From contig CABVRX010000016.1 of NCBI GenBank assembly GCA_902500825.1, forward strand, positions 1-64,000: 64,000 nucleotides of DNA, written 5' to 3'. The position numbers were made by a program, and so were the translations under genes. The stretch is from an uncultured Nitrospira sp. (GTDB lineage: Bacteria > Nitrospirota > Nitrospiria > Nitrospirales > Nitrospiraceae). The notes beneath the pieces were generated by a model. The model was given only the letters and a program-made list of their open reading frames with translations, did no database searches and was not told the DNA's origin. Shown one piece after another: positions 31,278 through 45,466 of the stretch. Every line of letters starts with the position of its first letter. The stretch's first letter is position 1.

Positions 31278-31922
31278 CTATACAGCTCCTGGCTCGATAG
31301 CGCGGCGCCGCACGTCGGCCAGCAGTCGTTCGACGATCAGTCGCATGAAAAAGAAGCCTAGCTTGGGGTTCTGGTAGTACAGGCGGTAAATCATCTCATC
31401 CGTCATCGTGTATAGTTCGCAGTCGGTCTCGCAGATCACAGTCATCGTGCGCACCTTCTCGATGGAGAAGAGCCCTATCTCTCCGATCAACTCACCGGGA
31501 TCGAGGTAGTGGCCGATTTCTTGAAGCTTGAGGCGCCCCATGGCCACGTAGACGATTTCGTTGGCCAGATCACCCTTTCGGAAGAGCACTTCCCCGGCCT
31601 TGTGCTTCCTGAGATACATGTGTGGCAAAAGCCATTCCGAAACGGGTGATGCCACAGTGGCCTGTTCGATCTGCTTTGTCAGCCGGATGATTTCTGACAG
31701 CCGTTTGGAGTTGATCGGTAACAGGATGGCATTGAGGAGAAATTCCGGCGCGCCGAGCAATTTAACGATATCAAACTGCACATGCAATACGCTGAAGCTG
31801 ATGAAAATGACGTTGCTGGCCACGGCCAGCACACGCAGGTGAATCATGTCTTTCTGCGCATGACTGGCAAGATACAACAGGCATCCTAGTAGGCCAATGA
31901 TGGTAACGTAATCAACGTGCAC
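31278..31922 (-). CDS. Membrane protein with cyclic-nucleotide-binding domain (214 aa)
   Basis: Two to three membrane helices (about 5-22, 28-48 and 56-70) lead into a CRP-like cNMP-binding beta-roll: YLRKHKAGEVLFRKGDLANEI, VAMGRLKLQEIGHYL, DPGELIGEIGLFSIEKVRTM and VICETDCELYTMTDEMI. The GE-x-x-G-E-I-G part is the phosphate-binding cassette region, although the Arg usually found in R-S/T-A-T is R-T-M-T here. No DNA-binding domain. The start is GTG with only a weak AGAAAG site. Cyclases in the same neighbourhood could supply its ligand. Confidence 0.8.
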   Translation of the reverse strand: MHVDYVTIIGLLGCLLYLASHAQKDMIHLRVLAVASNVIFISFSVLHVQFDIVKLLGAPEFLLNAILLPINSKRLSEIIRLTKQIEQATVASPVSEWLLPHMYLRKHKAGEVLFRKGDLANEIVYVAMGRLKLQEIGHYLDPGELIGEIGLFSIEKVRTMTVICETDCELYTMTDEMIYRLYYQNPKLGFFFMRLIVERLLADVRRRAIEPGAV

Positions 31923-32386: not shown

Positions 32387-34471
32387 GTGGACGATCAGCC
32401 GCGGAATCACGCCATACGACGTGTCATGGTCGGCACCGACCGCTCGAAAACAGCGGATCAGGCTGTTCTCTGGGCCGCCCAATTCGCTGATCGCTATGGT
32501 GCAGACCTGTTCGTGGTGCAAGTCATCCTCCCGCAGCACCCATCCACCACAGAATTCGGCACGGCGGAGCACACACGGGCTGCGGCCGCGAAACATGAAC
32601 TGACGGATTGTGTCCGTCAGCTTGTCGGAGAGCGCGGACATGCGTTCATCGTCATGGATGATGACCCGGCGTTGGCCATCGTCCGTGCCGCTGAGCAAGA
32701 AACAATCGATGTCTTGGTGGTGGGGAATGCGGGCATGGCGGGGAGAAAGGAGTTTTTGCTCGGCAACGTCCCGAACCGAATCAGTCACAATTCCCGTTGC
32801 ACCGTGATCATCGTGAATACCCAGCTATTAGCCGAAGGGCACACTGGAGAAGCCGCCCGAGTCATCTCCTCTCAACCCGAAAGCCAAGTCTCTGAACCTC
32901 ACATGGGAGCTCGAGCAGTAAAAATCGCCACCGTGATGGCGAAATATGGTGTTCAAGAATTCTTGAGCCAACCCGCTCCATCGGATATCTTGACACGCCG
33001 TCAGCAAGCCAAGCGTCTTCGTGCTGCGCTGGAAGAACTGGGGCCCACCTTTTCAAAACTGGGGCAGGTGTTGTCGACTCGCCCGGATCTCCTTCCTGCG
33101 GAATACATCGAAGAACTTGCGATGTTGCAGAGTCACGTCCCTCCACTGTCTGAGCGCGAAGTTGTTCGAGTGGCTGAGCAGGAATTGCGGGTGCCGTGGG
33201 AAGATGTGTTCGAGTCGATTGATCCCAAACCGCTCGCTGCCGGGACCATCGCCCAAGTTCATCGGGCGACATTGGAAACCGGCGACCGGGTGGTCGTCAA
33301 GATTCAGCGGCCCACGGCACGAGCGGAAATCGAGCAGGATCTGGCTCTCCTGGAGGTCTTTGCCGAAAAAGTCGGCAAGCGTCCTGCGCTCAACCGAGTG
33401 GTGAATATGGAGGCCGTGTTCAAACACCTCTCCACGTCGCTTCAGCGTGAACTCGACTTCCGTCAGGAAATTGAGAACATCGAGAGGATGCGGATGGTGC
33501 TCGCAGACTATGATCGATTAGCGGTCCCTTCCGTGTACCGAGAACTCTCGACCGCCCGATTGTTGGTGATGGGAGAAATTCAGGGTATTCACATTGCTCA
33601 GGCGCCGGACGGTCCAGAACGCGTCGAGGCCGCCCGGCAGCTCTTGGAGAGCTTCTATAAGCAAATCATCGTCGATGGTTTCTTCCATGCCGATCCTCAC
33701 CCAGGGAATCTTATGTGGTGGAAGGACCGTATCTACCTCCTGGATTTCGGTATGGTCGGGGCTGTGGATGCCAATGTGCGTGAGCACCTCTTGTTACTGC
33801 TGATGGCGTTGTGGAAAGAAGATACGGTGTTCCTGAGCGACGTCATTCTCATGATGGCGGGGTCGCTTGATCGGAGCGATCTGAATGTGCCTCAGTTCCA
33901 GAGTGACATAGGCGACATGATCTCAAAATACCGTACGGCGGCTCTGGCCGACATGCAGATCGGACCGCTTCTCCAGGAAATGAGTGCGATCGGTGTTCGA
34001 CACGGTGTGCCACTGCCGGCGTCATTGACACTTGCGGCCAAGGCGCTTGCGCAGGTCCAACTCGCGACCGCGCAGCTTGATCCCAAACTCGATCCGTACG
34101 ATGTGGCGGGCAAGTTTTTGATGCGGTCGATGCTGAAACGTCTGGGTGCCACCCTGGATCCCAGAGGGTTGGTGTATCAGTCGCAGAAGTTGAAAGTACG
34201 GGCTGAGCGGGTCGTCGAAGCGATTGAACATCTCATCGGTGCCCGCCCTGGCCAGAAGCTGGTCGTCAATTTTAAGGCGAATTCCCTGGAGGATACGGTT
34301 CGCCGTACAGGTCGGCGTTTCGCAGTAGGGCTGACCGCTGCCGCAAGTATTCTCGCCAGCGGACTCACGGCGACCTCGGCCACAGCGGCCGATTGGGTCT
34401 CCGTCTCGTTCGGGATCGTCGCCGGGCTGCTGATTGTTGGATTGGTTCTGGATTTGATGCGCGGACGGTAG
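32387..34471 (+). CDS. Fusion of universal stress protein domain and UbiB/ABC1 atypical kinase (694 aa)
   Basis: Residues 8-150 are a UspA fold (RVMVGTDRSKTADQAVLWAA, DVLVVGNAGMAGRKEFLLGNVP, SRCTVIIVN), with the G-x-x-G-x(9)-G-S/N ATP-binding pattern partly kept. From about 190 a UbiB/AarF domain follows: LGPTFSKLGQVLSTRPDLLP (KxGQ), PLAAGTIAQVHRA (Ala-rich loop), VVVKIQRP (Lys), FFHADPHPGNLMWW (catalytic loop) and YLLDFGMVG (DFG). Two membrane helices close the protein. UbiB proteins support ubiquinone or lipid biology. Start GTG with weak ribosome site. Confidence 0.9.
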   Translation: MDDQPRNHAIRRVMVGTDRSKTADQAVLWAAQFADRYGADLFVVQVILPQHPSTTEFGTAEHTRAAAAKHELTDCVRQLVGERGHAFIVMDDDPALAIVRAAEQETIDVLVVGNAGMAGRKEFLLGNVPNRISHNSRCTVIIVNTQLLAEGHTGEAARVISSQPESQVSEPHMGARAVKIATVMAKYGVQEFLSQPAPSDILTRRQQAKRLRAALEELGPTFSKLGQVLSTRPDLLPAEYIEELAMLQSHVPPLSEREVVRVAEQELRVPWEDVFESIDPKPLAAGTIAQVHRATLETGDRVVVKIQRPTARAEIEQDLALLEVFAEKVGKRPALNRVVNMEAVFKHLSTSLQRELDFRQEIENIERMRMVLADYDRLAVPSVYRELSTARLLVMGEIQGIHIAQAPDGPERVEAARQLLESFYKQIIVDGFFHADPHPGNLMWWKDRIYLLDFGMVGAVDANVREHLLLLLMALWKEDTVFLSDVILMMAGSLDRSDLNVPQFQSDIGDMISKYRTAALADMQIGPLLQEMSAIGVRHGVPLPASLTLAAKALAQVQLATAQLDPKLDPYDVAGKFLMRSMLKRLGATLDPRGLVYQSQKLKVRAERVVEAIEHLIGARPGQKLVVNFKANSLEDTVRRTGRRFAVGLTAAASILASGLTATSATAADWVSVSFGIVAGLLIVGLVLDLMRGR

Positions 34472-34805: not shown

Positions 34806-36125
34806 ATGAGAGGTGATGGGGCCAAGTTGGCTAAAAAGCTCTTACCCCAGGTAGCAATGTTGTCATTCCTCTCTCCCGGCGAAATACAAGCGCTTTCACA
34901 ACGCGGCGAAATACTGTCTGTTAATGATGGCGATGTTCTTATTGCTGAGGGTGCGGTTGGAAACACCTTGTTTCTTGTGCTGCGAGGTAAAGTGGCGATC
35001 TCACGGGATGGATTTCGCCTGGCCGTAAGTGAAATGGGATCTGTAGTAGGCGAAATATCGCTCGTTGACTCGGGAAAGGCAACCGCAACAGTAACAGCTA
35101 TAGGTCCAGTGATGGTGTTCAGGATATCCAGGGAGAACTTTGAAACTCTCTACTCAAATAAGAATTTTGTTCGCGCTATCCTCAAAGGTCTTGCCGCGAA
35201 AACAAGGGAGGCGATTGACCGAGACGTTGGCAACCTTCACAGAATAGAAGGACTGCGTGATACGTTCGGGCGATATGTTTCTAAGGCAGTGTTGGATGAT
35301 ATATTGTCTTCTTCTGACCCGGAGTCACTTTTATCCGGTCGCTTGGCCAATGCAACAATCTTCTTTTCTGACATTCGCAATTTCACTACTTTCTCCGAGC
35401 ATCTGCCTGCTGCCGACATGATCTGCCTGCTTCGAGACTATTTTGGCCGAATGGTTCCCCTGGTAACGAAGCACAACGGGTATATAAACAAGTTCATTGG
35501 TGACGCTCTTTTGGTTCTATTTAATCTTCCAGTGGCATACTCAAATTCGGCCATTGAAGCGGTACAGACTGCAATTGAAATGTCCCAATCGCTTGACGAG
35601 ATGAACGCTGATAGACGCGACCGCGGAAAACCTGCGATAAGCATCGGAATTGGGATCCATGCAGGAGAAGTAATTGCTGGCAACATTGGTAGTGTTGAGA
35701 GAATGGAATACACCGTCATCGGTGACAATGTCAATCTATGCTCACGCCTTGAGGGTTTGACCAAGCACTATGGAGTACGGGTGCTGATCAGCGAAGATCT
35801 GCGAGAGAAGATTGGCCAACATTTCCTCATTCGCGCAATAGATTTAGTGATAGTGCAAGGTAGGCAGAAGCCCACACGGATCTATGAACTTTGTGGGACG
35901 ATATCTTCAGCGAGAGATATAGAAGTATCAGTGTGTAGGCAGTATGAGGAAGTACTAAATCTGTACTTCGCTAGACGCTGGCGTGACTGTATCAAGAAAA
36001 TATCTAAGAGCAAACTGCTAGCTATCGACAATCCATCTAACGTGCTGCGTAACAGATGTGAGTTCTTTTTAAAAGAACCTCCTTCCGAAAACTGGAATTG
36101 TGCTTTTGCCATGGGTGAAAAATGA
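34806..36125 (+). CDS. Class III adenylate/guanylate cyclase with cNMP-binding domain (439 aa)
   Basis: Residues about 18-130 form a cyclic-nucleotide-binding beta-roll (FLSPGEIQALSQRGEIL, VVGEISLVDSGKATATV). Residues about 175-355 are a class III cyclase: FFSDIRNFTTFSEHL (metal Asp), YINKFIGDALLVLF (substrate Lys and second metal Asp), and YTVIGDNVNLCSRLEGLTK (Asp for adenine, Asn/Arg for transition state). These residues point to cAMP. Self-feedback by the product is likely. The reading frame is clearly more A/T-rich than its neighbours, which suggests horizontal transfer. Confidence 0.9.
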   Translation: MRGDGAKLAKKLLPQVAMLSFLSPGEIQALSQRGEILSVNDGDVLIAEGAVGNTLFLVLRGKVAISRDGFRLAVSEMGSVVGEISLVDSGKATATVTAIGPVMVFRISRENFETLYSNKNFVRAILKGLAAKTREAIDRDVGNLHRIEGLRDTFGRYVSKAVLDDILSSSDPESLLSGRLANATIFFSDIRNFTTFSEHLPAADMICLLRDYFGRMVPLVTKHNGYINKFIGDALLVLFNLPVAYSNSAIEAVQTAIEMSQSLDEMNADRRDRGKPAISIGIGIHAGEVIAGNIGSVERMEYTVIGDNVNLCSRLEGLTKHYGVRVLISEDLREKIGQHFLIRAIDLVIVQGRQKPTRIYELCGTISSARDIEVSVCRQYEEVLNLYFARRWRDCIKKISKSKLLAIDNPSNVLRNRCEFFLKEPPSENWNCAFAMGEK

Positions 36126-36426
36126 TAGGGCACTCAAATATGGCCAAAAAGTATGGGGTCAAGAGCCTTTATGAAACGTTTTTGGTTGATGGTCACTCAA
36201 CCGAATCTCCGTGGCGAGATGATGCCGTTTAACTGTGGATGCGCCGAGCGGTGGAGGCATCGGTAGAGAACACTCTCGTTTCTACGGATGCCCCGATGCG
36301 TTTCGCACACCTTTCCTGCGAGAGGGCACCTTGTCGGTGAGATGAGGCATCGGTGTCTGTGAGGAGCCGGTGAGGCATCCTGGCGCACGCCGCTCGAGTT
36401 TTCGCAGCCTGCTAAGGTTTGAAACG
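36126..36426. other. Intercyclase region with hairpin and GAGGCATCGG repeats
   Basis: The string GAGGCATC recurs three times (near 36254, 36343 and 36372), and GGCATCGGTAGAGA...TTTCTACGGATGCC (about 36257-36296) forms an imperfect hairpin. A GTG at 36370, in frame with the following cyclase, has GAGGAG three bases upstream and is an alternative start. No separate gene seen. Confidence 0.4.
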
Positions 36427-38679
36427 ATGAGGCGAATACTCAAAGCGCTCGCATGGGGCTGTGTGGTTGGGCTCATCGGGCTCGTCTTCAGCTTCACGCA
36501 CATGGCGAGAAGTTTTGAAGAGGATCTTGGCCTCGACTTTTTTTTTAAGTTGAGAGGTGTTCAACAACCGCCCACGGAAGCCGTCGTCGTCAGTATCGAT
36601 AGAGACTCTGCGGAAAACCTCAAGATCCCGGACAATCCTGACAAGTGGCCTCGCTCCGTTCATGCGAGACTTATCGACACCCTTGTGCGAGCAGGTGCCA
36701 AGGCCATTACCTTCGACGTACATTTTATCGAGCCGAAGGTGACGGAAGACGATCATCTGTTCGAACAGGCGATTCGCCGCGCTGGAAATGTGGTCCTCGC
36801 TGATGCCATGAGGGCGAAAGATATTCCGACCCCATCGGCTGGACATGATGCCTCCGACACCACCAATATCGTCAAGCTCATCAAGCCGCTTGAGTCGTTT
36901 GCGCAGGCGGCGACGGGAACTGCACCATTCGTCCTGCCCAGGATTCCTTTCAAGGTGAATCAGTATTGGACGTTCCAGCAGGGAGCCGGTGATGCCCCGA
37001 CGTTTCCGATTGTGGCATTGCAGCTGTACGGGTGGGAGGAGTTAGGAAATTTGGTTCAGTTGGTGAAACAGGTCAACCCGGCCTATGCGGAGAGGCTGCT
37101 CGGCGATGTGGAGAAGGAGCGTATCACGCGAAGTCTTGTGGGAATGATCCGTGATCTGCGAGACCTGTTTGAAGGCGATTCCTTGCTGGCTGAGCGGGTG
37201 CGCGAGGAGTTAGAGCGATCGGGTCTGCGAGCGAAGGACCAGGGTCGGTATCGCCTTCTGAAGGCTCTGATCAATATATACGGAGGAGAGGTCAGCCGGT
37301 ATATCAACTTCTATGGACCGCCTGGGACGGTTCCCACGATCCATTATGACCAGGCGCTGCAGATTGGAACGGAGTCAGGGCCGGCTTTCGATGTGGAGGG
37401 CAAAGCAGTCTTTGTCGGCCTTTCGGAAATTCTGCTCGCGGAACGAAAGGACAGCTTTTACACCGTCTTCTCGCAGGGGAACGGGGTATTCATCGGTGGG
37501 GTGGAAATTGCCGCAAGCGCCTTCCTGAACATTCTCGATGACACGACGATCGTACCGATCAGCTTGCCGGCTCATATCGGGCTGCTGTTGTGTTGGGGGA
37601 TGGTCGTCGGGGCTCTCTGTCGGCTGCTCTCTATCAGCATTGCCGCCGGGGCGATGTTCGGCATGGCCGGGCTGTATCTGACTATCGCCGCACATCAATT
37701 TCAGTCCTACCAGCAATGGTATCCGGTTGTGCTTCCTCTCCTCGTTCAGTTGCCGATCGGCTTCGTCGGTGCGGTCCTCTGGAATTATGTCGAATCGGAT
37801 CGTGAGCGAAAGAACATCCGCAAAGCGTTCGGGCTCTATTTGCCGAACGATGTCGTCGATCAATTGGCGAAGGACATGGCGAATATCAAGGGCACGACAC
37901 AGGTGGTCTACGGAACCTGCCTGTTCACCGATGCCGGAGACTATACTGCGCTCTCAGAGAAAATGACGCCGAAGGACCTCAGCGATTTCCTTGGCCGGTA
38001 TTTCGAAGCGCTCTTTCAGCCGGTGCGCAAACATGGCGGTCTGATCGTGGATCTGAAAGGGGATTCGATCTTAGCTATTTGGAAAGGACCGCACGATGAT
38101 CCGGCTCTGCGCAAAAAGGCTTGTCTGGCCGCGCTGGAGATGTCTGAGTCCGTGGCCCGGTTCAATCAATCTGTGGCGCCCTATAGTCTGCCCACACGCA
38201 TCGGTCTGCATGCCGGTGAATTGACGATCGGGGCGGTCGGAGCCATGGATCACTATGAATATCGGCCGACCGGCGATGTCGTCAATACAGCCTCGCGTGT
38301 GGAAGGGTTCAACAAGTATGTCGGGACACAAATCGCCGTGAGCGACGAAGTGATCAAAGGTTTGGACGGACTACTGACCAGGCAACTCGGTACATTCCGG
38401 CTCAAAGGCAAAGGCACACCGCTGAGGCTTCATGAATTGGTGAACCCCTCGGAGCAGGTGAAACAGATACAGCATGAAATCTGCGCGATCTTCGCGGAGG
38501 GGTTGACGGCCTTTAGAAATCGTTCGTGGGATCAGGCTCGCGCTGCCTTCCAGCGGTGTCTCGACGTGACAGAACAAGATGGCCCCTCTCAGTTCTATTT
38601 TGCCCTCTGCGATCAGTATCTCACGACTCCCCCTTCAGAAGAACCCTGGGACGCTGTCATCACTTTTGAAAACAAATAG
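36427..38679 (+). CDS. CHASE2-domain adenylate/guanylate cyclase (750 aa)
   Basis: A membrane helix (LAWGCVVGLIGLVFSFTHM) opens the protein; an extracytoplasmic CHASE2 sensor (about 30-370; AVVVSIDRDSAENLK, ITFDVHFIEP, GKAVFVGLSEILLAERKDSF) follows, then three membrane helices and a class III cyclase (about 480-690): CLFTDAGDYTALSEKM, IVDLKGDSILAIW (Lys and Asp kept), YEYRPTGDVVNTASRVEGF. A short TPR-like tail ends it. The domain order is the standard CHASE2-cyclase sensor. ATG 36427 is preferred; GTG 36370 is possible. Confidence 0.92.
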   Translation: MRRILKALAWGCVVGLIGLVFSFTHMARSFEEDLGLDFFFKLRGVQQPPTEAVVVSIDRDSAENLKIPDNPDKWPRSVHARLIDTLVRAGAKAITFDVHFIEPKVTEDDHLFEQAIRRAGNVVLADAMRAKDIPTPSAGHDASDTTNIVKLIKPLESFAQAATGTAPFVLPRIPFKVNQYWTFQQGAGDAPTFPIVALQLYGWEELGNLVQLVKQVNPAYAERLLGDVEKERITRSLVGMIRDLRDLFEGDSLLAERVREELERSGLRAKDQGRYRLLKALINIYGGEVSRYINFYGPPGTVPTIHYDQALQIGTESGPAFDVEGKAVFVGLSEILLAERKDSFYTVFSQGNGVFIGGVEIAASAFLNILDDTTIVPISLPAHIGLLLCWGMVVGALCRLLSISIAAGAMFGMAGLYLTIAAHQFQSYQQWYPVVLPLLVQLPIGFVGAVLWNYVESDRERKNIRKAFGLYLPNDVVDQLAKDMANIKGTTQVVYGTCLFTDAGDYTALSEKMTPKDLSDFLGRYFEALFQPVRKHGGLIVDLKGDSILAIWKGPHDDPALRKKACLAALEMSESVARFNQSVAPYSLPTRIGLHAGELTIGAVGAMDHYEYRPTGDVVNTASRVEGFNKYVGTQIAVSDEVIKGLDGLLTRQLGTFRLKGKGTPLRLHELVNPSEQVKQIQHEICAIFAEGLTAFRNRSWDQARAAFQRCLDVTEQDGPSQFYFALCDQYLTTPPSEEPWDAVITFENK

Positions 38680-39373: not shown

Positions 39374-42300
39374 ATGGGAGGAACGGCGAACCGATGGGGG
39401 GTTTGTGCAAGTCTTATGGTTTGCTCAAGCATCCTGCTGGGTGTGTTGTCTCCTGCCCCGTCACGTGCGGCGACATGCGAGCCGCCGATCGCGAAAGCGA
39501 TGGCCGTCGAGGGCAAGGTGGATGTCCGCTCCACCGACAGCACGCAGTGGCGGCCGGTCAAGCTGAACGACACCTTCTGCCCCGGCGACGTCATTCGCGT
39601 GCAGGAACGAAGCAGAGCCGATATCGCGCTCTCGAATCAGCCGATCTTACGTCTCGATCAGAACAGCACGATGACGCTCGGCGGCGTCAAGAAACAAGGC
39701 GGCTCGGTCGTCGAACTCACGAAGGGCGCCGTGCACTTCTTCAGTCGCCTCCCCAGGAACCTCGACATCAAGACCGCCTTCGTGAACGCAGGTGTGGAAG
39801 GTACGGAAGGCGTCGTGAACGTCGGCGAGGAGAAAGCTGAAGTCACGATCTTCGAAGGGAAGGTCGTCGCGGCCAACGAATCCGGGACAGTCACCCTCAC
39901 CAACGGCCAGTCGGTTGTTGCTGAAACGGGTAAACCCCTTACATATCAGACCGTCGTCAAGCCGCGCGATGCGGTGCAGTGGGCGCTGCATTACCCGCCG
40001 GTCATTGACCGGAAATCCGGTGAAGCGGGAGAAGCGCAATCGCTCACCAACCGTGCCGCAGACGCGCTGGCGGTCGGCCGGGTGGACGAAGCCAAGGCGG
40101 ACCTCGACCGGGCGCTGAAAACGGATCCGCGATCTGCCGATGCACTGGCCCTCCAGTCCATCATCGCCGTCGTGCAAAACGACAAGGAACAAGCGCTGGG
40201 CTTGGCCACCAGCGCAGTGGCGGCAAATCCGCAGTCCGCCTCCGCTAAGATCGCGCTGTCCTATGCCCAACAGGCTCATTTTGATGTCGACGGAGGGCTG
40301 AAGAGTCTCCAGGAAGCCGTCAAGGCCGAACCCAACAACGCCCTGGCCTGGTCGCGATTGGCGGAATTGCATCTGTCGCTGCAGCAACTCGATAAGGGAT
40401 TAGCAGCCGCACAACAAGCCGTGGAAATAAATCCCGATGTCGAGCGGGCACACACGGTTTTAGGATTTGCCTACCTCTTGCAGGTCAAAACCAAAGAGGC
40501 GCAAGCCGAATTTCAAAAGGCGCATGAAATTGACCAAGCTGCGGCATTGCCGCAACTGGGATTAGGTTTGGCCAAATTCCGGGAAGGCAAAGTCGAAGAA
40601 GGTCGCCGCGAGATGGAAGTCGCCGCCAGCTTGGATCCAAACAATTCGATGATCCGCAGTTATCTAGGCAAAGCGTACTTCGAAGAGAAAAAAACAGATT
40701 TGACGGAACGTGAATATCAGAACGCCAAGGAACTTGACCCCAAAGATCCAACACCGTTCTTCTATGACGCGCTACAGAAACAGCTCACCAACAGGCCGGT
40801 CGAGGCGTTAAAGGACATGGAGACGGCCATTAAGAACAATCAAAATCGCGCTGTGTATCGGTCTCAATTACAAATGGATCGAGACCTTGCGGCACGCAGT
40901 TCTGCCTTGGGTCGTGTCTACACCGATTTGGGTTTCGAGCAAGTCGCCTTGGTTGAAGGTTGGACTTCTATCACGCAGGATCCCAGCAGTTACACGGCTG
41001 CTCGTTTCCTGGCCGATACCTATGCCTCACGGGAACGTTCAGAAGTGGCGCGGGTCAGCGAATTGCTGCGATCCCAACTGTTACAACCGCAAAACATCAC
41101 GCCGATCCAACCAACCCAAGCCATCAGCAATCTTTTGTTACTGGGTTCCATCGGTCCAACCGGCACGTCGTTTAGCGAGTTCAATACCTTGATGGTCAAT
41201 CGCGACCGGCTCACGTTTCTCGGCAATGGATTGTATGGTAGCAATAACACAGCGATGGGAGAAGGTGTCGTTGCCGGCATTTTCGGAAAACTCTCGGTCA
41301 GCGCCGGATTCTCCAATTTTAGGACAGATGGCTGGCGCGCGAATGCCAACCAAAAAGATGCGATTGCGAACGTGTTCATGCAGTATGAACTCACCCACAA
41401 AACGAGTATTCAGGCTGAATATCGCTATCGCAACCTACAGCTAGGTGACGTGCAGCAACGATTCTTTAACGATAATTTCGAGCCATTTTTTAATAATTCG
41501 ATAGTGAACAATGTTTTCAGGATTGGAGGACGGCATTCTTTTACACCTGACTCGACCCTGCTAGCCAACTTTAGTTACACGAAAAATGGGGATCTTGCCA
41601 CATTCGCCCCTCCGAATACGCCCCCCGTTGACGTCGGACTCGGGAGTCCTGTTCCGATCTCATTCCAGCAAATCAACGGAAAAGGATTCAAGCAGGACGC
41701 GTATACCGCTGAGGTCCAACACATATTGCGCACTCAGTATCTGAATCTCGTGACCGGTGGAGGCTACAGACAACAAAACGGAAGCCCCCAATTACTTGTC
41801 AATCTTAATGCCAGCATCCTGGACCCCACGGACCCTACCCTCGCGAACCTCAATGTAGTGAACCAACCGATTCCGTTGCTTCTCCAACACCTCAACGCGT
41901 ATGCGTACGGCTATTTCAAGCCGATTCGGAATCTGACCTTGATCGCGGGAGGAAGCTACGACTATTTGGAAGGCTCACCGGCATACGTGGCTGGACCGAA
42001 TTCCGACAACTCGAAGAGTCAGTTTAACCCAAAATTCGGCCTGCTCTATCAGCCTCACCCGAACACGACGATTCGGTTAGCGGCCTTCAGGACGCTTAAA
42101 TCACAAACCTTAAATGAGCAGACAATCGAGCCCACCCAGGTGGCAGGCTTTAACCAGTTCTACGACGACGTCTCTATTAGCCATGGATGGCGCTACGGAG
42201 CGGCGATCAACCAAAAGTTCTCAAAGACGTTCTTTGGAGGTGTCGAAGGTTCTTACAGAAAAGTGGACCTTCCCACAACGGATGTCCTCGATGTCACAAA

Positions 42301-42769
42301 TACCACTAACAATACTAACGAGTGGTATCAGGCGTTGGCCTATCTCAACTATGCGCCGCATCCGTGGGTCGCACTCAGGGCACATTACCAATATGACCAA
42401 TACGCCAACAGTTTGCCTGGTGCCGGACAATTCTCCGATGCCCAGCTATACACGAGTCGCGTGCCCTTGTCGGCTGGTTTTTTCCACCCATCTGGGTTCA
42501 TTGCCAATGTGACTGTCACCTACTGGAACCAAACTGGGACGTTTGAGCCCCTGAGTCAACCACTCGGAACACGAGTAGATGGGCACGATACGTTTTGGCT
42601 GACCGATGCCATGATCGGATACCGGATGCCGGAACGGTACGGACTGATTGTGGTCGGCGTGAAAAATCTATTTGATCAGCAGTTCAACTATTTCAACACG
42701 GACTGGAGAAATCCGATCATTCAGCCTGATCGGCTCGCATTCTTCAAGATCACCATTGCCCTTCCATGA
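39374..42769 (+). CDS. FecR-TPR-outer-membrane beta-barrel fusion protein (1131 aa)
   Basis: Start ATG 39374 with AGGGAGGT 4-6 bases upstream. A signal peptide ends APSRAA. Residues about 40-175 are a FecR domain (VEGKVDVRS, GDVIRVQERSRADIAL, VELTKGAVHFFSR, VEGTEGVVNVGEEKAEVTIFEGKV). About 200-560 are TPR units (ADALAVGRVDEAKADLDRAL, LAELHLSLQQLDKGLAAAQQ, AHTVLGFAYLLQVKTKEAQA). From about 600 to the end a TonB-dependent-receptor-like barrel of about 530 residues follows, rich in aromatic/Gly/Asn alternation (YRYRNLQLG, YGYFKPIRNLTLIAGGSYDY, PERYGLIVVGVKNLFDQ) and ending in FFKITIALP. No TonB box or plug is seen, so it is probably a self-contained pore or secretion channel with a periplasmic scaffold. 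Confidence 0.85.
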   Translation: MGGTANRWGVCASLMVCSSILLGVLSPAPSRAATCEPPIAKAMAVEGKVDVRSTDSTQWRPVKLNDTFCPGDVIRVQERSRADIALSNQPILRLDQNSTMTLGGVKKQGGSVVELTKGAVHFFSRLPRNLDIKTAFVNAGVEGTEGVVNVGEEKAEVTIFEGKVVAANESGTVTLTNGQSVVAETGKPLTYQTVVKPRDAVQWALHYPPVIDRKSGEAGEAQSLTNRAADALAVGRVDEAKADLDRALKTDPRSADALALQSIIAVVQNDKEQALGLATSAVAANPQSASAKIALSYAQQAHFDVDGGLKSLQEAVKAEPNNALAWSRLAELHLSLQQLDKGLAAAQQAVEINPDVERAHTVLGFAYLLQVKTKEAQAEFQKAHEIDQAAALPQLGLGLAKFREGKVEEGRREMEVAASLDPNNSMIRSYLGKAYFEEKKTDLTEREYQNAKELDPKDPTPFFYDALQKQLTNRPVEALKDMETAIKNNQNRAVYRSQLQMDRDLAARSSALGRVYTDLGFEQVALVEGWTSITQDPSSYTAARFLADTYASRERSEVARVSELLRSQLLQPQNITPIQPTQAISNLLLLGSIGPTGTSFSEFNTLMVNRDRLTFLGNGLYGSNNTAMGEGVVAGIFGKLSVSAGFSNFRTDGWRANANQKDAIANVFMQYELTHKTSIQAEYRYRNLQLGDVQQRFFNDNFEPFFNNSIVNNVFRIGGRHSFTPDSTLLANFSYTKNGDLATFAPPNTPPVDVGLGSPVPISFQQINGKGFKQDAYTAEVQHILRTQYLNLVTGGGYRQQNGSPQLLVNLNASILDPTDPTLANLNVVNQPIPLLLQHLNAYAYGYFKPIRNLTLIAGGSYDYLEGSPAYVAGPNSDNSKSQFNPKFGLLYQPHPNTTIRLAAFRTLKSQTLNEQTIEPTQVAGFNQFYDDVSISHGWRYGAAINQKFSKTFFGGVEGSYRKVDLPTTDVLDVTNTTNNTNEWYQALAYLNYAPHPWVALRAHYQYDQYANSLPGAGQFSDAQLYTSRVPLSAGFFHPSGFIANVTVTYWNQTGTFEPLSQPLGTRVDGHDTFWLTDAMIGYRMPERYGLIVVGVKNLFDQQFNYFNTDWRNPIIQPDRLAFFKITIALP

Positions 42770-42820
42770 GAACAATGATCAAAAATGTGCTGATGAAAAC
42801 CCAACCGACAGGAGGTGCGT

Positions 42821-43486
42821 ATGTTGATTAGATGCTTAGCCGTGATCTGTGCCATGGCGCTCACCATTCCTATCTGGGGACTCACGAGTGACGCCCTGGC
42901 ACTGAACATTACGTTGAGGAAGGCGAGCCCCAATACCGTGGGCTGTGACCTGGTTGTGACCGAGACAGGAGATATTGACACGGATACCTTGAGCGTTAGC
43001 TGCAAAGTTGGGCCGCCGTCAGAAGGCGTGCCTAATATACCCGGGCTTGCTCTGTGTCGCAATCCAGGGAGCAAGAAGAACGCAGCCCCAGGGATACAGC
43101 TGGTGGAAGTGGAATTAGTTGGATCATTTGAGGACACGTCCTCAGTTAACCAGGTGAATTGCAACGGGGAGACTGGACAGTGTGAACAAACTGTTACCGC
43201 TTCGGCCAAAGGAGCTCAATTAGCCGCGTTAAATGCTGCATGCCCAAACCCACGATGGACCGTGTCAGATTTTGCGCCCTGTTCGACGATAATTATGGTC
43301 ACAGCAACTGGTACATGTGGCGAAGGGTACGGGACGAGGACAGCCACGGCAACATTCAGCTGTGTAGAGATTAACTGCCAGGCGGTAGTGCAGTTCGATA
43401 AAAAAACTGGGAGATTGGGGGGGCCTGATTACGCATGCAATGAGGTATCTAGGACAGATTCAGGGTGTGTGTATCCTGGAGACTAA
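42821..43486 (+). CDS. Secreted cysteine-rich protein, copy 1 (221 aa)
   Basis: ATG 42821 matches the paralogue's start and has GGAGGT 4 bases upstream (an in-frame GTG lies 6 bases earlier). The signal peptide of about 29 residues ends SDALA. The mature part has 12 cysteines in positions conserved with copy 2 (VGCDL, SCKVGPP, LCRNPG, NCNG, QCEQT, ACPNP, FAPC, GTCGEG, SCVEINC, YACN, GCVYP), which would allow six disulfides. No family recognised. Between the barrel gene and the DsbA-like gene on the same strand: exported and disulfide-bonded is a reasonable inference. Confidence 0.8.
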   Translation: MLIRCLAVICAMALTIPIWGLTSDALALNITLRKASPNTVGCDLVVTETGDIDTDTLSVSCKVGPPSEGVPNIPGLALCRNPGSKKNAAPGIQLVEVELVGSFEDTSSVNQVNCNGETGQCEQTVTASAKGAQLAALNAACPNPRWTVSDFAPCSTIIMVTATGTCGEGYGTRTATATFSCVEINCQAVVQFDKKTGRLGGPDYACNEVSRTDSGCVYPGD

Positions 43487-43495
43487 GGAGGTTGA

Positions 43496-43645
43496 ATGCT
43501 GAGGCCAGTACCAACAAGTCGCCCGATCACTTTTGTGCTTTGGGGATGGGGCTCCTGCAGGCCGCAGGGCTGAGTGAGAACACGGGGACCGCTGCACAGC
43601 CAACAGCGGTCGCCACTATTGATGGTTCCATTGTCTCAGAAGCCG
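43496..43645 (+). pseudogene. Frameshifted 5' fragment of the SurA/DsbA-like gene
   Basis: 150 bases align with the first 151 bases of the gene at 44405: ATGCTGAGG start, GGGGATGGG, GCCGCAGG, and ATTGATGGTTCCATTGTCTC near the end. One base is lost in the T-rich part before GGGGATGGG, which shifts the frame to TGA after about 25 codons. The homology then stops and the second copy of the secreted-protein leader begins. The ribosome site AAGGAGG is intact, so a short peptide might still be made. Confidence 0.8.
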
Positions 43646-43700
43646 AGAGCACAATGGCCAAAAATGTATTAATGCAAACCCAACCAACAGGAGGCGCGTT

Positions 43701-44342
43701 ATGTTGAGTAGATTCATGTCCGTGCTCTGTGTCATGGCGCTCACCATTCCTATCTGGGGACTCACGAGTGACGCCCTGGCACTGAACATTACGTTGAGGA
43801 AGGCGAGCCCCAATAGCGTGTTGTGTGAGGTGCAGGGTACCGGTGCGGGAAATATTACCAAGGATCCCCTGGTCTTTAGCTGCGAAGTTGGGCCGCCGCA
43901 AGAACTCTCGACTATAACCGGGCTTGTTGTGTGTGGAAATCCCGGGAAGAAGTTGAATGCCGCGCCCGGTATACAGCTGGCGGAATTAGCTGGAACATTT
44001 GTTGAGTTTGATCCAGTTAGCCCGAGAAATTGTGACAAGAATGGAAAGTGCGTACAAAGTGTTCTTGCTGAGCCAACCGAAACTCAATTAACCTCGTTAA
44101 ATGCTGCATGCCCAAACCCACAATGGGTTGCGAAAGATTTTGTGCCCTGTGCAGCGACTGTTACGGTCCAAGGGATTGGTCTGTGTAGTGATCGAATCAC
44201 CGAGGGGGTGCTAGCCCAGGCATCATACTCCTGCGTGATCCCGAATTGTGAGGCTGTCCTGACATACAATCCAGCCACTCAGAAATTGGAGGGACCTGAT
44301 TTCACATGCACAAAGCTATCAGAGGGACCGTCATCATGTTAG
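43701..44342 (+). CDS. Secreted cysteine-rich protein, copy 2 (213 aa)
   Basis: Paralogue of the gene at 42821, with the same signal peptide and the same first 12 mature residues (LNITLRKASPNS/T) at nucleotide level. All 12 mature cysteines are kept (VLCEV, SCEVGPP, VCGNPG, NCDKNG, KCVQS, ACPNP, FVPC, GLCSDR, SCVIPNC, FTCTK, SSC), while the residues between them differ at roughly half the positions. GGAGGCG ribosome site. Followed by the DsbA-like gene 62 bases on. Ligand or role unknown; constant leader plus variable body is the pattern of diversifying secreted families. Confidence 0.8.
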   Translation: MLSRFMSVLCVMALTIPIWGLTSDALALNITLRKASPNSVLCEVQGTGAGNITKDPLVFSCEVGPPQELSTITGLVVCGNPGKKLNAAPGIQLAELAGTFVEFDPVSPRNCDKNGKCVQSVLAEPTETQLTSLNAACPNPQWVAKDFVPCAATVTVQGIGLCSDRITEGVLAQASYSCVIPNCEAVLTYNPATQKLEGPDFTCTKLSEGPSSC

Positions 44343-44404: not shown

Positions 44405-45466
44405 ATGCTGAGGTACGTACAAAAAAGTTGCCGGTTCACTTTCTTGATTTTGGGGATGGGTTTGTTGCCGGCCGCAGGACTGAGCGAGAACAGGGGGACA
44501 GCCATACAGCCAACACCTGTCGCCACTATTGATGGTTCCATTGTCTCAGAAGCTGATCTCGCTCAGACGGTCGCGGGCCAACTCCAACAGTTAAGACAGC
44601 AGGAATATGAGCTGAAGAGTAAATCGCTGGACCAGTTGATTGCCAGGCGGTTACTCGAAGTGGAGGCCGCGAAGCAGGGTATCTCGGTTGATCAACTGAC
44701 CGATCGCGAAGTCAAGGCAAAGGTCGGTGAACCAACCGATGCGGAGGTGGAAGCGTATTATCTCGGCCAAAGGGATCGTCTTCAGCGGCCGCTATCTGAA
44801 ATTCGATCACAGCTTCGGGAGGCTTTACGCCAGTCGCGAATTCAAGAGGGCATGCACCAGTATGGTGCTCGATTGAAAGCTGCATCAACGATTGTGGTGT
44901 GGCTCAATCCGCCTCGCGTTGAACTCAGTGGACATTCCAGCCGTATTCGGGGCAATTCGGATGCGCCGGTCGCAATCGTGGAATTCTCGGATTTTCACTG
45001 CCCATTCTGTAAACGGGTGCAGCCTTCTCTGAACGAAGTGCTGTCGCGCTACGATGGAAAAGTTAAACACGTCTTCCGCGATTTCCCGTTGGATAACCTC
45101 CATCCGCAAGCCAGAGCGGCGGCCGAGGCCGCCAATTGCTCGGGAGATCAGGGTAAATTCTGGGAGTACCACGATCTCCTCTTTGCACAGGCTCCGAAAG
45201 CCTCGCTCGAAGATCTCAAAGGCTATGCCAGGACCGTGGGCTTGAATACGGAGAAGTTCGACAACTGTGTCTTTCAAGGCACGCATCATGATGCGGTGCA
45301 ACGTGATATCGATGAGGCGACCAGGGTAGGGATGACTGGGACACCGGGTTTCTTCATCAATGGACGATTTCTCAACGGTGCACAGCCATTAGAGAAGTTT
45401 GTGCAGATCATCGACGAGGAACTGGCGTTCACACAGAAAGGGCACCGTCAGCGCATCGCTGAATGA
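44405..45466 (+). CDS. Exported SurA-N-like / DsbA-like thiol-disulfide oxidoreductase fusion (353 aa)
   Basis: A signal peptide (to about 26) is followed by a SurA/PpiC-type chaperone N-terminal helical region (VATIDGSIVSEADLAQTV, LDQLIARRLLEVEAAKQGI, about 38-165). From about 185 comes a DsbA/DsbG-like thioredoxin fold: PVAIVEFSDFHCPFCKRVQP (C199 and C202, active-site C-P-F-C), FRDFPLDNLHPQARAAAEAA, and the cis-Pro loop VGMTGTPGFFING. It would oxidise or isomerise disulfides in the periplasm; the two 12-Cys proteins encoded just upstream are likely clients. Last gene of the module. Confidence 0.88.
   Translation: MLRYVQKSCRFTFLILGMGLLPAAGLSENRGTAIQPTPVATIDGSIVSEADLAQTVAGQLQQLRQQEYELKSKSLDQLIARRLLEVEAAKQGISVDQLTDREVKAKVGEPTDAEVEAYYLGQRDRLQRPLSEIRSQLREALRQSRIQEGMHQYGARLKAASTIVVWLNPPRVELSGHSSRIRGNSDAPVAIVEFSDFHCPFCKRVQPSLNEVLSRYDGKVKHVFRDFPLDNLHPQARAAAEAANCSGDQGKFWEYHDLLFAQAPKASLEDLKGYARTVGLNTEKFDNCVFQGTHHDAVQRDIDEATRVGMTGTPGFFINGRFLNGAQPLEKFVQIIDEELAFTQKGHRQRIAE

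Follow-up and report, generated by a model that had tools for sequence, protein, structure and literature searches.

At positions 39374-42769 the window, by which is meant the whole analysed stretch of 64,000 nucleotides from an uncultured Nitrospira, encodes a protein that is probably a signal receptor of the outer membrane, built like NsrA, and not a channel for cargo. On one chain it carries a FecR domain, a long TPR superhelix and a 22-strand barrel that lacks a plug. It is related over its full length to NsrA of Sinorhizobium meliloti, and like NsrA it is encoded beside a CHASE2 cyclase, an adjacency that is conserved among its relatives.

Domain anatomy of the receptor

The frame opens with ATG, ahead of which is a GGAGG-like site, and on sequence grounds it is a real gene and not a chance frame, because its domain order is shared by all 71 homologues whose N-terminus is complete or nearly so. 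Its parts are the following.

39374-42769, forward strand: whole receptor gene, an NsrA-type FecR-TPR-barrel protein of 1131 amino acids (translation, Pfam, AlphaFold2 model, hhalign with the NsrA family)
39374-39469, forward strand: signal peptide, approximately residues 1-32 (sequence; hydrophobic helix in the model)
39473-39973, forward strand: FecR domain, residues 34-200 (Pfam PF04773, separate model, PupR match, cysteine counts)
40031-41086, forward strand: TPR superhelix of ten helix pairs, residues 220-571 (Pfam TPR, model)
40739-41086, forward strand: last helix pairs, residues 456-571, a putative coupler of barrel and arm (conservation)
41087-41206, forward strand: junction of 40 residues (572-611), without a plug (model; no PF07715 match here)
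41207-42766, forward strand: barrel of 22 strands, TonB-dependent-receptor type, residues 612-1131 (model, Foldseek, VIA-align, loop pattern)

Pfam places FecR at residues 72-164 (E 2e-12) and the start of the TPRs at residue 227, and gives a weak TonB_dep_Rec_b-barrel match at residues 676-918 (E 8e-8). The AlphaFold2 model, for which the alignment held 58 homologues (mean pLDDT 82, pTM 0.73), has a signal helix at 5-25, a beta FecR domain at 40-193, paired helices at 220-570 and a mostly extended junction at 572-611; the barrel that follows has 22 strands, in the interval 612-1130. Loops from odd to even strands are long and those from even to odd comprise 2-5 residues, the pattern expected of a closed barrel with both ends periplasmic, and closure, read from this pattern and the Foldseek matches and not from coordinates, is what it suggests; the strand count and closure that the earlier note had proposed to look for in a predicted structure are in agreement to this extent. 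Foldseek ranks TonB-dependent receptors of 22 strands (E to 9e-16) as the top matches of the model, with FpvA, FecA and BtuB among those matched by the barrel in Foldseek and VIA-align, and the predicted fold is that of a TonB-dependent transporter with 22 strands.

No match to the plug family PF07715 was found in the receptor. The plug model does work in this genome, since eight plugged receptors were found by it in other proteins there, and no plug fits between the helices and the barrel because that interval is of 40 residues, as against some 130 for a plug. The mature protein of the model begins directly with FecR and no plug follows; the TonB box is a short motif that has no dependable test. 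The reading of FecR and TPRs ahead of a barrel without a plug, made earlier from the letters, is thus borne out by Pfam, the model and the PF07715 search, and as to homologues with a plug, which had been named as the counter-case, in a set of 43 homologues PF07715 is not one of the families with matches in more than three. The last TPR helices are the most conserved part of the family, with 58% of columns at least 90% identical, and the suggestion that a periplasmic arm stands in for the plug is plausible in that light. The variable part is formed by the outer barrel loops, in several of which identity is 13-30%.

TPR and receptor chains took up the VIA-align list of the full model, and the FecR domain was therefore modelled and searched alone (pLDDT 88.7). 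It matches the cell-surface signalling domain of the anti-sigma regulator PupR (6ovk_R) with Z 15.2 over 138 residues at rmsd 3.0, and a Parabacteroides anti-sigma factor with Z 14.7, the next row having only Z 7.0; the modelled fold, a FecR solenoid, justifies the name. Cysteines C35 and C69 of this domain form a pair present in 50 and 52, respectively, of 58 homologues. The likeness to PupR is what would be expected were this classical cell-surface signalling, with FecR reporting to an ECF sigma factor or to the signalling domain of a TonB-dependent receptor. FecR here is, however, part of an outer-membrane chain in which neither an inner-membrane anchor nor a sigma-binding or anti-sigma domain was found by Pfam or in the AlphaFold2 model, and it is the genome's two other FecR proteins, of about 350-380 amino acids and near plugged receptors (C18, C12), that resemble ordinary anti-sigma regulators. 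An explanation of that sort is extremely improbable.

Relatives and pairing with a CHASE2 cyclase

Upstream of the receptor gene the window holds the following genes.

36427-38679, forward strand: CHASE2 cyclase, the proposed inner-membrane partner; a GTG start at 36370 is also possible (Pfam, catalytic residues, conserved adjacency)
36502-37611, forward strand: CHASE2 domain of that cyclase (Pfam)
37915-38418, forward strand: cyclase domain of that cyclase (Pfam)
34806-36125, forward strand: second cyclase domain, on one chain with a cNMP-binding domain; only this and one other PF00027 protein were found in the genome (Pfam)
31278-31922, reverse strand: small protein in which a cNMP-binding domain accompanies three hydrophobic segments, the other PF00027 protein and a candidate effector (Pfam, hydropathy, homologue at locus L032)

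The CHASE2 cyclase gene is directly upstream of the receptor gene on the same strand, with the cNMP-cyclase fusion upstream of it in turn. Elsewhere in the window, 32387-34471 encodes a universal stress protein domain and an ABC1/UbiB-type kinase domain on one chain. Downstream of the receptor with its conserved FecR cysteine pair, 44405-45466 encodes a SurA-like N-terminal part followed by a DsbA-like thioredoxin domain, and 42815-44342 holds two tandem paralogous secreted cysteine-rich proteins without a Pfam match. Between the cysteine-rich genes, 43465-43707 resembles a truncated copy of the first part of the SurA/DsbA-like gene that continues into the next leader and, judged by these resemblances, looks like a scar of tandem duplication. 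The cysteine-rich proteins (42815-43486 and 43701-44342) were considered as a conserved ligand or accessory and rejected, clear relatives being present only at the closest Nitrospira locus, with one weak match elsewhere.

A contig scan gave 432 relatives, of which the best 80 were analysed as loci. Its seeds were two barrel or junction motifs, so that conservation of those motifs is partly selected; FecR and CHASE2 were not in the seeds. The 80 loci span Nitrospirota, delta- and gammaproteobacteria, Methylomirabilota, Rokubacteria, Nitrospinota, Brocadia and others, and in this best 80 of 432 FecR is present in all 71 chains with a complete or near-complete N-terminus, so the domain order, which the earlier note would have sought across Nitrospirota, is one of several phyla. 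By Pfam, FecR and TPRs occur together in 43 of 43 family members, 25 of which reach the receptor-barrel model. Within the genus the full-length receptor is patchy, occurring in only two of 35 genomes (G000 and G004).

Where there is enough flank (at least 2.5 kb on the left), a CHASE2 gene accompanies the receptor gene at 54 of 59 loci; for the other five none was found within the stretch covered. It is directly upstream on the same strand in 42 loci, many of the gaps being of a few bases. Distances among FecR domains correlate with those among CHASE2 domains (r 0.51; shuffle maximum 0.25), a correlation that includes shared ancestry and is consistent with joint inheritance. Eight loci (L034, L037, L038, L041, L048, L049, L051 and L053) have a distant subtype of CHASE2 cyclase, with scores of about 150 compared with about 600, mostly on the opposite strand, which suggests partner exchange. 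In 59 related genomes 15 of 55 FecR genes are within 6 kb of a CHASE2 gene, against about 0.5 expected. Most of these CHASE2-near FecR proteins are of 300-460 amino acids and have no barrel, and therefore FecR and CHASE2 are paired more widely than in the receptor family alone. One related genome has, within about 9 kb, two CHASE2 genes flanked by three of FecR type (G041:C98:25227-33902). At another locus (L008; G055:C5:459925-460512) a FecR region 39% identical to the window receptor has an internal stop and may represent a decayed or split receptor; the distance to a CHASE2 gene is about 1.9 kb.

The NsrA-CyaK pair of Sinorhizobium meliloti is reportedly the subject of Garnerone et al. 2018 (doi 10.1128/JB.00019-18). 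In a search of plasmids the FecR-TPR-barrel chain turned up in Ensifer and Sinorhizobium also, and on pSymB of S. meliloti ml28 the annotated nsrA is followed, with a one-base overlap, by cyaK; in Pfam terms NsrA is FecR with TPRs and CyaK is CHASE2 with a cyclase. Compared one against one in hhalign, the family of the window receptor and that of NsrA align over 1037 columns with probability 100 (E 1.8e-46). Because TPRs inflate profile scores, FecR and barrel were also compared separately, with probabilities of 99.7 (3e-26) for FecR alone and 98.3 (2e-14) for the barrel alone. The fused order is accordingly not unique to the window, being the architecture of NsrA.

A receptor-type barrel is mostly for uptake, and there are weak TPR-level matches to the TPR-barrel proteins BcsC and PgaA, which export polymers. 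These features would suit a transporter or channel in which a substrate traverses the barrel, the arm of TPRs and FecR serves to gate it or to bind peptidoglycan, and the CHASE2 neighbour only regulates or accompanies uptake. Such an explanation is unlikely: lack of a plug means lack of the usual TonB coupling, no polymer synthase or transporter gene is a clear recurrent neighbour, the neighbour that is constant is a signalling cyclase, and NsrA behaves as a receptor in genetic tests. The peptidoglycan binding by the arm that had been suggested from the letters finds no support, as the searches with the receptor, Pfam included, revealed no peptidoglycan-binding domain. The idea of a channel with cargo is likewise without support, gene neighbourhood and NsrA both pointing to perception of a signal that would control the CHASE2 cyclase.

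Proposed signal path and cyclic-nucleotide output

With the protein taken as a signal receptor, an extracellular ligand would meet the outer loops of the barrel, and the change would pass by way of the conserved last TPR helices (456-571), in the position where other receptors have their plug, to run along the TPR arm into the periplasm. There the tip of FecR would touch the periplasmic CHASE2 domain of the upstream cyclase (36427-38679), which would then alter cyclic-nucleotide synthesis in the cytoplasm, with the product being read by the local cNMP-binding proteins. The hydropathy of the cyclase reveals hydrophobic segments at 4-22 and 375-452, and its CHASE2 domain is therefore predicted to be periplasmic and its cyclase domain cytoplasmic.

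The direction from receptor to cyclase is suggested by the genetics of NsrA, an outer-membrane receptor needed for the cAMP made by CyaK, CyaD1 and CyaD2 in S. meliloti; it is required for perceiving signal 1 and signal 1′, both of which are transduced by CyaK and CyaD1/D2, and ribosomal protein uL2 is its candidate ligand (PMC7529298, PMC13001267). With identity between the window receptor and NsrA at about 19%, the Nitrospira barrel could bind a ligand of another class. Adjacency alone gives no direction, and cyclase output might conversely control expression or assembly of the receptor. That is decidedly improbable, since CHASE2 senses outside the cytoplasm, the two hydrophobic segments putting it in the periplasm here, and NsrA is genetically upstream of its cyclases.

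The metal-binding Asp502 and Asp546 of the window cyclase, as well as the class III residues Asn620 and Arg624, are invariant in all 62 partner cyclases. The ATP-specifying Asp617 is kept, and the position of the class III adenine-binding lysine is occupied by Asp542, so that a product other than cAMP is possible; in the 62 partners this column consists mostly of D, N and E. The genome is 99.8% complete. Of its three class III cyclases two are encoded at this locus, and the only two cNMP-binding (PF00027) proteins found in it both lie within 8 kb of the receptor. Regulators of the Crp type were looked for in the genome and not found: PF00325 has no match and PF13545 none above cut-off, and a Crp query over the genome matches only the local cNMP-cyclase fusion protein. 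With both cNMP-binding proteins local and no Crp found, the output therefore probably differs from that through Clr in S. meliloti. From gene content, the likely readers of the messenger are the two local proteins rather than a Clr-like regulator. At the locus of the L032 homologue a small membrane cNMP protein is in the same place, beside the CHASE2 gene.

Among the best 80 of 432 relatives, genes with a cNMP-binding domain occur at 23 of the 80 loci, ten being Crp regulators of the classical type, most of them divergent and next to the CHASE2 gene; this is the clean domain count, and a figure of 34 loci with Crp regulators was discarded as a neighbour-cluster artefact chained via GAF and sigma-54 domains. 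A broader proposal, possible though on balance rather doubtful, is that of a self-contained non-transcriptional pathway from receptor to CHASE2 cyclase and on to the membrane-anchored cNMP protein and the cNMP-cyclase, with no Crp; more widely, the touch between FecR tips and CHASE2 would be a general means, in many phyla, of relaying external signals to enzymes of the inner membrane.

NsrA and other known systems

So far NsrA has been regarded as a receptor by which rhizobia perceive plant signals. Together with a CHASE2 cyclase this chain is also present in Nitrospirota, Desulfobacterota, Gammaproteobacteria, Methylomirabilota, Nitrospinota, Planctomycetes and others, and control of cyclic nucleotides by outer-membrane-barrel sensing is therefore likely to be an old and general device. 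What CHASE2 domains sense is listed as unknown (PMC5192318); a FecR domain reaching in from the outer membrane is a possible answer. A search of the available literature found no paper on the domain order of this receptor family or on its Nitrospira members.

With NsrA-CyaK the window pair shares the FecR-TPR-barrel order over full length, a barrel at about residues 600-1200 with a common loop motif around a conserved Asn-Gln, and an adjacent CHASE2 class III cyclase. It differs in that the gene order is reversed, with the cyclase before the receptor, that the substrate lysine kept in CyaK is Asp542 in the window cyclase, that no regulator of the Crp/Clr type was found in the genome, and that there is no plant host. 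The receptor belongs to the known NsrA kind, and its output branch is probably new.

In Campylobacterota CHASE2 cyclases adjoin a FecR-domain outer-membrane protein (mBio 2022, PMC9239204), the two side by side as in the window; compared by description only, that cluster differs in having a separate TPR gene and a phosphodiesterase. A Burkholderia biofilm operon pairs a LysM-FecR protein with a CHASE2 histidine kinase (PMC5192318), again an envelope protein with FecR and a membrane sensor with CHASE2, but with peptidoglycan-binding LysM instead of TPRs and barrel, and with histidine kinase and response regulator as output. In FecA/FecR and PupB/PupR a receptor-type barrel and a domain of FecR fold also cooperate across the envelope, though as two chains, with a barrel that has a plug and a signalling domain, and with an ECF sigma factor as output. 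BcsC and PgaA, encoded in polysaccharide operons, share the periplasmic TPR arm preceding a barrel; they have no FecR, and theirs are 16-strand export barrels, in contrast to the 22 receptor-type strands of the Nitrospira protein.
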